From: Fusobacteriaceae bacterium
Lineage (GTDB): Bacteria > Fusobacteriota > Fusobacteriia > Fusobacteriales > Fusobacteriaceae
NCBI GenBank assembly: GCA_016938425.1
Contig: JAFGUR010000236.1
Location: forward strand, 1-35,908
Direction: 5' to 3'
Length of the DNA stretch: 35,908 nt
Part shown: one piece after another, positions 18,712 to 22,081 of the stretch
Layout of the letters: every line of letters starts with the position of its first letter
How positions within the stretch are numbered: position 1 is the first letter of the stretch
Notes under the pieces: generated by a model
Databases searched by the model: none
The model's input: only the letters and a program-made list of their open reading frames with translations
What the model was told of the DNA's origin: nothing
Made by a program: the position numbers and the translations under genes

Positions 18712-19977
18712 TTAAATATTACTAGAATCTTTAAATGAATTTTTGAATGATTTTATAAAAATACTAGAATATTCTTTTGGAAATTTTTCGAAGATTAAAT
18801 CTATGATTTCAACAATTTCAAAATTTGAAAAACTATTTTTAGGTATTTTAAAAATAGCATTTTGAATCTTATTTATTCGATCTATAGTAAAAATTCCGTA
18901 TAATTTGATAAGTTCTATGACACTAAAAATATATTTTTCAATTAGAAAATGACTATCTTTGATATTTACTCCTAAATCTAGTTCTTTTTCAAAGTTTATA
19001 ATGGCATTTTGTATATCATTAAAAAATAGGTATCCTTTTCCTAAGGTCATATAACTTTGATACCTCTTATTATTCCAAATAGAATCAACAGATATTTCTA
19101 GTCTATTTATATTATTTTTAATCATTACTTCGTTTTTTGTCTCTATACCACATAAAATTAAGTTAGAATAAGATAGAACTTTAACGTAATCGCTATTGGA
19201 TGATTCTTTTAAAGTATTACGGAAATAATCAATAGCTTTAAAATATTCTTTGCCCAATATATAACAATAACCGATATTGTTGAGACAAGACTCTTTTGCT
19301 AGAGGTTTATTAACTAAACTCAAAGCTTCTTGGTAAAGATTGATAGCCTTTGCATATGAATTTTTCTTGTGAAAAGCTAGTCCAAAATTGAATAAAATAT
19401 ATCCTTTAATTTCTTTTTCATAAATTAAATTCATATTTAAACTTTTAAAAAGTTGTATAGACTTATACCATTGCTTATTTTTATTATAAACTCTTTGTAA
19501 TTGAAAAATTATTAGAGGTAAAAACTTATTTTTGTTGTGAGAAGCATCTTCTAAAATAGGTTCTAAAAATATTAAAGAATTGTCAATATCCTTAGAAGTA
19601 TTATATAAATAACTTCCAACAATTGAATTAAATTTTATATAGTTTTCTATGCTTAGATATTTTTCAATAGAGAATTTAATTTTAACGAAATCATTAGTAG
19701 TATAATTTTTTAAATTTTTGATTAGTGTATTCATGATATTTTCCGCTTGAACATTTTCACTTTTAGAAATTTCATCAAATTGTGCAATATTTTTTTTAGA
19801 GATGGCATTAATTCTTTTGCAAAGTAGAAGGGCAATTTTTTCTGTTAATTTCACCTTATTATTTTCAATATAAGAAAGCATGGGAATACTAATAATTCCA
19901 TTGCTTAATTCTTTTTGAGAAATATTAAGTGATTTTCGTAATGTTTTAATTTTTTCTCCAGGACTTTTAATTTCCAT
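18712..19977 (-). CDS. XRE-family HTH plus TPR-repeat transcriptional regulator (RRNPP/NprR-like architecture, 421 aa)
   Basis: N-terminal HTH (GEKIKTLRKSLNISQKELSNGIISIPMLSYIENNKVKLTEK), then TPR-like repeats (ILFNFGLAFHKKNSYAKAINLYQEALSL, CLNNIGYCYILGKEYFKAIDYFRNTLKE, YMTLGKGYLFFNDIQNAIINFEKEL). Confidence 0.9.
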   Translation of the reverse strand: MEIKSPGEKIKTLRKSLNISQKELSNGIISIPMLSYIENNKVKLTEKIALLLCKRINAISKKNIAQFDEISKSENVQAENIMNTLIKNLKNYTTNDFVKIKFSIEKYLSIENYIKFNSIVGSYLYNTSKDIDNSLIFLEPILEDASHNKNKFLPLIIFQLQRVYNKNKQWYKSIQLFKSLNMNLIYEKEIKGYILFNFGLAFHKKNSYAKAINLYQEALSLVNKPLAKESCLNNIGYCYILGKEYFKAIDYFRNTLKESSNSDYVKVLSYSNLILCGIETKNEVMIKNNINRLEISVDSIWNNKRYQSYMTLGKGYLFFNDIQNAIINFEKELDLGVNIKDSHFLIEKYIFSVIELIKLYGIFTIDRINKIQNAIFKIPKNSFSNFEIVEIIDLIFEKFPKEYSSIFIKSFKNSFKDSSNI

Positions 19978-19988
19978 AAGTTTCTCCT

Positions 19989-20025
19989 AAATTTAAGTGG
20001 ATTTTAAGTATTTATACTTAAATTT
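19989..20025. promoter_or_regulatory. Repeated half-sites and inverted repeats in the regulator's own 5' region
   Basis: AAATTTAAGT (19989-19998) and ACTTAAATTT (20016-20025) are exact reverse complements; a nested palindrome TTTAAGTA-TTTA-TACTTAAA lies at 20003-20022. Confidence 0.5.
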
Positions 20026-20123
20026 TACCAAATTAACATACAAAGTTTATTTTTTGAAAAAAATAAAGTAATATCTCTGTTGAAGTGTAAAACTAAATAT
20101 TTATAATTAGGTAAGTTATAAAT

Positions 20124-20144
20124 TTTAATTTTGGCAAAATTAAA
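20124..20144. promoter_or_regulatory. 21-bp inverted repeat upstream of the 30-aa peptide ORF (candidate operator)
   Basis: TTTAATTTTG-G-CAAAATTAAA, 10-bp exact arms with 1-nt spacer. Confidence 0.5.
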
Positions 20145-20279
20145 GTTTATAGAGTTTGAATTATTCAGTAGAAATTTTTAGGTTAAACAAATTTATAATT
20201 TAGTTAGTTGTAGAATCAAAAATAAATTATGTTAAGATTTCTCAATAAACTAAAAATAATTTTTTTAGGAGGTGATTAT

Positions 20280-20372
20280 ATGAATAAAAAAATTATTTTA
20301 TTTGCAATATTTTTATTATTAGTAATAAATATGTTTGCTAATGAATGTGGGACTTTAAGTAGATTATTTTAA
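20280..20372 (+). CDS. Small secreted-type peptide, candidate pheromone precursor: MNKKIILFAIFLLLVINMFANECGTLSRLF
   Basis: ATG preceded by AGGAGGTGAT (20267-20276), fully complementary to the 16S anti-SD, 7 nt from AGGAGG to ATG. Positively charged N-terminus, hydrophobic core, short polar C-terminal tail. Too short for the supplied ORF track. Confidence 0.7.
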   Translation: MNKKIILFAIFLLLVINMFANECGTLSRLF

Positions 20373-20569
20373 TTTGAATATTATTATAACTAAAAAAGAT
20401 TAAAATTTCTACTAAATTTTTAAATATTTAGATTAAAAACACGGAAAATATGGGAGAGTTTAAATAAATAAAGTGATTTGAGAATTAATTTTAGTAGCTA
20501 AAAGGGGAAAAATAATATAAATGTGAGAATAAGATAATCGTATTTGAAAAAATTTAAAGGAGAAAATTG

Positions 20570-22081
20570 ATGAACAGAAAAAGAATAATTAAACCGATTA
20601 TGTTATTATCTACATTATTAATATTTGCAGTAGGTTGTAATTCTGGTATTTCAAATGATGTTAACGAAAAAACAAGTGAATCTTCTATTTCTAAAAGTAC
20701 TAGTAACGACTTAGGGGGACTTAAGTCTACAGGAATGATAACAAGTTTGGCAAGCGCAAATGATAGTGTATTTAAAAACGCTATATATGTATCTCCAAGT
20801 GGGAAATCGACCAATAGTGGAACAAGCTCAAGTCCTTATGATTTAGTAACAGCCTTGTCAAAAGTTGAAAGTGGGAAATCTACAGCTGTTTTATTGTTAT
20901 CAGGAACATATAAATTTAATAAACAATTGGATATTACTTCTAGTGGGACAGCTAGTTCTTATAAAGTATTGAAAGCTTCAAAAGGAGCTTCTGTAACTCT
21001 TGATTTTTCAAGTGAATCTTATAGTACAAGTTCAACAGATAAGAATGCTAGAGGAATTCAGCTAAACGGAAGCTATTGGTATATAGGTGGAGTTACAATA
21101 AAAGGAGCGGCAGATAATGGAATGATGGTTTCAGGACATCATAATGTTGTTGAAAGATGTATATTTGATTCAAATAGAGACACAGGACTTCAAATCAGTA
21201 GAAGTAATTCAAGTGTAACAAAAAATAATTGGCCAAGCTATAATTATATAATAAATTGTACTTCAAAAAATAATTGTGACCCAGCAACTTATGAAAATGC
21301 TGATGGGTTTGCATCAAAACTTACTTGTGGTGAAGGGAATATATTTGATGGGTGCATTTCTCATAATAATAGTGATGATGGATGGGATTTATATGCAAAA
21401 TCTGAAACAGGAGCTATTGGAAAAGTGACAATTAGAAACTGTATTGCTATGAGAAATGGAAAAACAGAAAGTGGAGTTTCTAAATCTAGTTGTGATGGAA
21501 ATGGATTCAAATTAGGAGGAGGAGGAGTTGGGACAGCTCACTCTATAACAAATTCACTTGCAATAGAAAACCTATATTGTGGATTTACAGATAATAATAA
21601 TCCATCTGCTTTAAGTATCGCTAATTGTACTGCTTTTGATAATAATAAAGGTGGAGGGAAAAATAATTTTAGTGTCTATAGATGTAAAGATGGAATTCTT
21701 TCAAATTCTTTTTCTTATACAACAAACAACACAACTGATAAATTTGTAAATTTATCTGCAGATCACAGTGTTTACAAAATTGATAGTAGTTGGTATTTAG
21801 TAAAAAATCAAACTGCACTTGATACAACAAATTCGTCAAAAAGAGGGACAAAAACTTCTAGTGGAATAACTTCTACAGACTTTACAAGTACTAAAGTTCC
21901 TTCTGTAGGAACAAATTTTGATTCTGTATGGAGAAATTCAAATGGAAGTATAAATACAAATGGAGTTGGAATGTTAGCAAGTACTAGTACTTACGCTTCT
22001 TTTTCTTCAGGAGGAAATGCTATTGGAGCAAGATTCTCTTCAGCTAATGCAATTACTACTTTAACAATAAATGTAAAATAG
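20570..22081 (+). CDS. Right-handed beta-helix lipoprotein, PL9 pectate lyase-like (start ATG 20570 rather than TTG 20567)
   Basis: Lipobox LIFAVGC; AIYVSPSGKSTNSGTSSSPYDLVTAL; PL9-like core YNYIINCTSKNNCDPATYENADGFASKLTCGEGNIFDGCISHNNSDDGWDLYAK...GNGFKLGG. Confidence 0.87.
   Translation: MNRKRIIKPIMLLSTLLIFAVGCNSGISNDVNEKTSESSISKSTSNDLGGLKSTGMITSLASANDSVFKNAIYVSPSGKSTNSGTSSSPYDLVTALSKVESGKSTAVLLLSGTYKFNKQLDITSSGTASSYKVLKASKGASVTLDFSSESYSTSSTDKNARGIQLNGSYWYIGGVTIKGAADNGMMVSGHHNVVERCIFDSNRDTGLQISRSNSSVTKNNWPSYNYIINCTSKNNCDPATYENADGFASKLTCGEGNIFDGCISHNNSDDGWDLYAKSETGAIGKVTIRNCIAMRNGKTESGVSKSSCDGNGFKLGGGGVGTAHSITNSLAIENLYCGFTDNNNPSALSIANCTAFDNNKGGGKNNFSVYRCKDGILSNSFSYTTNNTTDKFVNLSADHSVYKIDSSWYLVKNQTALDTTNSSKRGTKTSSGITSTDFTSTKVPSVGTNFDSVWRNSNGSINTNGVGMLASTSTYASFSSGGNAIGARFSSANAITTLTINVK

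Follow-up and report, generated by a model that had tools for sequence, protein, structure and literature searches.

Surveys of the RRNPP(A) family of peptide quorum-sensing systems describe it only in Firmicutes/Bacillota (PMC9765709, PMC10075063, PMC12700828). In RRNPP_detector, a receptor is expected to have 250-500 amino acids (aa) and a match to a TPR Hidden Markov Model with E < 1e-5 over >65% of the model, with a DNA-binding HTH in all receptors but Rap, while a precursor is expected to have 10-100 aa, to be encoded directly adjacent to the receptor, from -60 to 400 bp away, to follow a strong Shine-Dalgarno sequence and to be secreted by way of a Sec signal or an equivalent (PMC10075063). 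The validated pairs are separated by -50 to 191 bp, and 400 bp is the detection limit (PMC10075063). Fusobacteria are unmentioned in the surveys, and no report of RRNPP in this group was found in the open-access literature searched, an absence that is no proof of novelty.

Here we describe two divergent genes and their surroundings in a 35,908-nt stretch of DNA (the whole stretch analyzed, hereafter the window) from a member of the Fusobacteriaceae. They look like an RRNPP-type receptor-peptide pair in Fusobacteriota, whose cells have two membranes, whereas this type has so far been described only in Gram-positive Bacillota. The features that the argument needs first are:

18712..19977, minus strand: candidate receptor of 421 aa with an N-terminal HTH_3 and C-terminal TPRs (Pfam, AlphaFold2 model, clade of peptide-linked receptors)
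20267..20276, plus strand: Shine-Dalgarno sequence AGGAGGTGAT, in which AGGAGG ends 7 nt 5' of the ATG
20280..20372, plus strand: candidate pheromone precursor of 30 aa, MNKKIILFAIFLLLVINMFANECGTLSRLF (sequence, chance test, receptor adjacency, analogous frames in related loci)
20570..22081, plus strand: lipoprotein with a right-handed beta-helix (pectate-lyase-like), a possible target (Beta_helix, E 4.4e-9)

The candidate peptide gene

The original prediction gave this ORF with its coordinates, sequence and length, all of which were correct when re-read on the sequence: 30 codons run from the ATG at 20280 to the TAA at 20370-20372. The Shine-Dalgarno sequence, the MNKK start and the hydrophobic core that it described as signal-like are likewise present. 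As the assembly contains no 16S gene, the Shine-Dalgarno sequence was not compared with the 16S 3' end of the host itself. An alternative in-frame ATG upstream, at 20229 (47 aa), has no Shine-Dalgarno sequence, so that 20280 is the likelier start. The best putative cleavage site is MFA/NE, with Met, an unusual residue, at -3, and the mature part of the peptide is likely to lie within the C-terminal NECGTLSRLF.

The hydrophobic core, the poor -3 residue and the short polar tail would also suit a small membrane regulator, one that is never released and acts from within the membrane on the neighboring receptor or lipoprotein. We consider such a role improbable: in relatives, the peptides carry favorable cleavage sites (SFA/DN, TFA/NK) and their polar tails are some 20 residues long, and an HTH-TPR receptor can act in the cytoplasm only with a ligand that is soluble.

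When ORFs were required to combine AGGAGG, an ATG, 20-60 aa, a K/R-rich start and a hydrophobic core, the ORF at 20280 was the only one in the 35.9-kb window to pass, and in first-order Markov shuffles of the 590-bp intergenic stretch between the receptor and lipoprotein genes such an ORF appeared in only 1 of 20,000. This figure is no more than a guide, because the criteria were chosen after the ORF had been seen and the shuffle preserves only composition and neighbor frequencies. Even so read, its rarity counts against a leader peptide or a chance ORF in the AT-rich DNA 5' of the lipoprotein gene, which we regard as very improbable. AT-rich DNA does favor hydrophobic frames, and the lipoprotein gene is the next one on the same strand, but the receptor-peptide association recurs in relatives and no terminator-like structure was found between the peptide and lipoprotein genes.

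The divergent candidate receptor

The starts of the receptor and peptide genes are 302 bp apart. Pfam searches of the receptor detected HTH_3 (26.2 bits, cutoff 23) and TPR_2 (E 6.4e-9, model positions 3-30 of 34), and the layout predicted from these domain matches is that of the receptors in RRNPP peptide quorum sensing. The receptor thus meets the RRNPP_detector expectations in length, TPR match and DNA-binding HTH, and the precursor meets them with its 30 aa, its AGGAGG at 7 nt and its distance of 302 bp, a gap that lies beyond the validated range. A test of sequence kinship was not met: subfamily models gave no match to Rgg, ComR_TPR, AimR or others, only to general TPR and HTH models, so that membership of a named RRNPP subfamily is not demonstrated.

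The AlphaFold2 model of the receptor (pLDDT 86.9) is all-helical, with an HTH followed by a TPR superhelix. A fold search with it returned mostly generic TPR proteins with low TM-scores, among them the PlcR-PapR7-DNA complex (rank 12, E 8e-5) and RapI (rank 45, E 4e-4), and RapF was among the profile matches. Because the TM-scores are low, the fold comparison supports the RRNPP reading without deciding it. The model of the related receptor of genome G041 had no RRNPP protein in its top 50 fold matches, and the window receptor matched only generic TPR proteins in a viral fold library. Searches for the receptor in viral contigs, phages and plasmids yielded nothing useful, and a scan of a collection of genome contigs gave only a distant TPR stretch.

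In known TPR receptors, Asn residues on the concave face of the repeats hold the peptide backbone. In the window receptor, N197, N234 and N272 occupy equivalent places of three successive TPRs and are invariant in 13 of 13 members of the receptor clade described below, while among 14 receptors outside it Asn occurs at the same positions in 6, at most one and 7, respectively. From sequence alone, a role of the three residues in holding the peptide may be inferred.

Related receptors and adjacent peptide frames

A related protein is found in 24 of 99 genomes of the phylum; in the window's own genus it is absent from the one other genome, of another species, that was examined. That the phylum is Fusobacteriota is inferred from the glycerol kinase, which in the plasmid set is nearest to that of Fusobacterium vincentii (75%), and from the composition of the phylum searched. 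In a tree of 32 receptors, the 13 from receptor-peptide loci form one clade (support 100/99), which includes the window receptor. Another of the 13, the second receptor of locus L042, is encoded after a receptor-peptide pair and itself lacks a peptide. Within the clade, the window and G041 receptors are sisters (support 98/94), a relation less sure than the clade itself because both branches are long. Beside its receptor, G041 has a divergent, signal-like frame of 41 aa, MKKVVSVMLLLLVLMFQVSFADNNKTGFTINVEIPIWDSVF, in the same layout as in the window, and in a third genus, g14, signal-like frames of 40-45 aa lie directly downstream of the receptor.

The association of peptide frames with this clade is an observation. 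A uniform scan detected a signal-like micro-ORF at 7 of the 14 loci in the clade and at 1 of the 20 remaining loci (Fisher p = 0.004), and adjacent signal-like peptide frames are missing from nearly all of the 19 HTH-TPR proteins that fall outside the clade. The p-value overstates the case because the loci are not independent, 11 of them coming from one genus. The clade loci missed by the scan have a weak Shine-Dalgarno sequence (L035, L041), a frame that is off its ATG (L039, L040, L045) or no frame at all (L034 and the second receptor of L042).

The g14 peptide frames are open, with pN/pS, calculated from small numbers, mostly about 0.3-0.5 (0.36 for L043/L044) and nearer 0.8 in the pairs L039/L037 and L033/L035. 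For the pair L039/L045, the true peptide frame did no better than another frame in the substitution comparison. The window peptide has no detectable homology to the g14 peptides in a leave-out profile test (E 0.46), and the two share position and build only. A match of the window peptide at E 4e-11 in the peptide-profile search of the phylum was discarded as circular, the peptide itself being in the profile.

Six g14 peptide genes begin with ATG, a run of A and TGG (L042:7230, L037:6076, L039:7565, L040:6873, and L045 and L080 on the minus strand). The run has 9 A, in frame, in two of them and 8, 7 or 10 A or GA6 in the other four, variants that take the ATG out of phase with a peptide frame that is in other respects open and conserved. 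This could reflect phase variation, slippage during transcription, decay or an error of assembly. L080:4800-5110, in genome G055, is an orphan cassette in which inverted repeat, promoter and peptide frame are joined directly, with the intervening receptor gene missing and the peptide frame off its ATG.

Another, distinct set of HTH-TPR proteins (L009-L025, L030 and L031) occurs throughout the family. Many of them begin with MFLSPEEKLL or M.ILSPVEKLI, and no signal-like peptides adjoin them.

Candidate sites in DNA and RNA

The noncoding sites around the peptide gene are as follows:

20003..20022, no strand assigned: palindrome TTTAAGTATTTATACTTAAA at the receptor promoter, possibly autoregulatory (from sequence only)
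20117..20151, no strand assigned: inverted repeat TATAAATTTTAATTTTGGCAAAATTAAAGTTTATA, candidate operator 5' of the peptide promoter, with 17-nt arms that are 94% complementary (no binding data)
20164..20199, plus strand: candidate peptide promoter, with TTCAGTAGAAA (-35 region, TAGAAA at 20169-20174), a 19-nt spacer and TATAAT at 20194-20199 (sequence; like order in g14)
20253..20299, plus strand: 15-bp perfect inverted repeat that places the Shine-Dalgarno sequence and start codon in the loop of a predicted mRNA hairpin (repeat search, predicted fold)
20383..20411, minus strand: promoter-like TAGAAA-N17-TATAAT, antisense into the peptide gene (consensus scan only, no RNA data)

An inverted repeat as good as the 35-bp one at 20117-20151 was observed in 1 of 100 shuffles, and the genome has no near-perfect second copy of it. 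The candidate -35 region, TTCAGTAGAAA, begins 12 nt past the repeat; a repeat 5' of a -35 box fits an activator site, at which binding of the receptor is inferred. The palindrome at 20003-20022, as the second-best repeat of the region, was not better than expected from shuffles. The motif TTYAGTAGMWA, defined after inspection, occurs 4 times in the window, with 0.45 expected, and three of the occurrences are around the peptide gene.

Inverted repeats are also present in the relatives. A 34-bp one lies between the receptor and peptide genes of G041, and most of the g14 receptor-peptide operons that share one type of receptor carry one about 71 bp before the start, which in the cassettes L037 and L042 is followed by TTTAGTAGAAA and then TATAAT at 17-nt spacing. 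The exact g14 repeat has 7 copies in four genomes and none in a reversed control; six copies are at receptor or peptide cassettes and one is beside a bacteriocin operon in genome G056. A looser search for this operator in g14 was abandoned, as matches with 2-3 mismatches occurred at about the control level, and its best new match, in genome G060, was dropped because it lies inside a gene.

The fold predicted at the peptide start (z = -2.0 for a 221-nt stretch) could control translation of the peptide. Together with an RNA transcribed from the promoter-like site at 20411-20383, on the minus strand, this hairpin would restrain the hydrophobic, membrane-damaging peptide of a type I toxin system. 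The short, hydrophobic product, the antisense promoter-like sequence and the position of the Shine-Dalgarno sequence and ATG in the predicted loop are all in keeping with a toxin, which is not excluded but is in our judgment unlikely: its repeated pairing with one clade of HTH-TPR receptors would not be expected, the consensus scan showed no terminator and no excess of promoter-like sites over shuffles, and the peptide-profile search revealed no conspicuous second copy in the genome.

A pheromone, the implied first choice of the original prediction, is thus set against these alternatives and has the best support, from the divergent HTH-TPR receptor, the clade of receptor-peptide pairs, the inverted repeat and the bacteriocin genes at two related loci.

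Possible targets and machinery

A PelX-like region in the lipoprotein encoded next to the peptide gene reaches E 2e-54 but is far under the family cutoff. That the receptor-peptide pair controls the lipoprotein gene is a guess from position only.

Downstream of the G041 peptide gene are genes for three double-glycine peptides and two Rce1-like membrane proteins, and one of the double-glycine peptides has a weak match to Bacteriocin_IIc, below the cutoff. This cluster, at L032:4500-10300, encodes double-glycine leaders of the form MKELQLNGITELNEQEMM.IDGG and adjoins the divergent receptor-peptide pair. The bacteriocin-type operon of G056 (L127:188-5927; G056:C35), with the g14 inverted repeat at 188-219, encodes a CAAX-type membrane protein, double-glycine peptides, an ABC transporter with a C39-like N-terminus and an HlyD-like protein, identities that were assigned by eye from the ORFs and not by family search. 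A reading in which the G056 operator acts in trans was dropped, as the site seems to belong to the promoter of a receptor gene, since lost, that was divergent to the bacteriocin operon. The C39-type transporter locus of the window's own genome has no double-glycine peptides.

The same genome encodes at least 3 complete SBP_bac_5 binding proteins and an M50 protease; because these are common proteins, they show only that import and processing are possible.

Proposed mechanism and significance

We propose that 20280-20372 and 18712-19977 probably work like an RRNPP pair, with expression, export and binding inferred. The 30-aa precursor would insert in the membrane by its hydrophobic N-terminal half and, by an inferred processing step, be cleaved to free its C-terminal part, either NECGTLSRLF or a truncated form that keeps the same end. 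Once exported, this peptide may build up outside the cell and, in an import step that is likewise inferred, re-enter the cytoplasm via an oligopeptide ABC importer. There, it would bind the concave TPR surface of the divergent receptor. The peptide-bound receptor, most likely an activator, may then act at the inverted repeat 20117-20151; this direction of control is itself an inference. Activation would amplify the peptide and perhaps also turn on the downstream lipoprotein gene, the inferred target.

A wider reading, which we hold only tentatively, is that imported-peptide (RRNPP-like) quorum sensing exists in outer-membrane Fusobacteriota, where it would control a surface lipoprotein in the present genome and bacteriocins in certain relatives, with a poly-A on/off switch of the pheromone gene in one genus. 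If a working RRNPP-like system does operate behind an outer membrane, it would raise the question of how the peptide exits and returns, and a phylum common in the mouth and gut would gain a cell-cell signal that can be tested, with a sequence, a receptor and a DNA site already proposed for it.

Comparison with known systems

Like the RRNPP (RRNPPA) systems PlcR-PapR, NprR-NprX, Rgg-SHP, ComR-XIP, Rap-Phr and AimR-AimP, the window pair consists of two neighboring genes, with an HTH-TPR receptor in the range of 250-500 aa, a short precursor whose N-terminal half is hydrophobic and whose gene has a strong Shine-Dalgarno sequence, conserved Asn residues of successive TPRs and a candidate DNA site 5' of the promoter. 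It differs from them in matching no named subfamily, in its divergent 302-bp gap and in belonging to a diderm phylum. The PrgX-PrgQ system of enterococcal conjugation plasmids, which has divergent receptor and peptide genes and an antisense RNA, resembles the window locus in the divergent arrangement and the possible antisense RNA; the window, however, has neither a sequence match to it nor conjugation genes, and its antisense RNA is a promoter-like match only. As in the peptide-controlled streptococcal bacteriocin loci of the ComR/Rgg type, the G041 cassette and the former G056 cassette put a receptor or its promoter beside genes for double-glycine peptides, whereas the window locus is without a bacteriocin gene and has the beta-helix lipoprotein as its neighbor.
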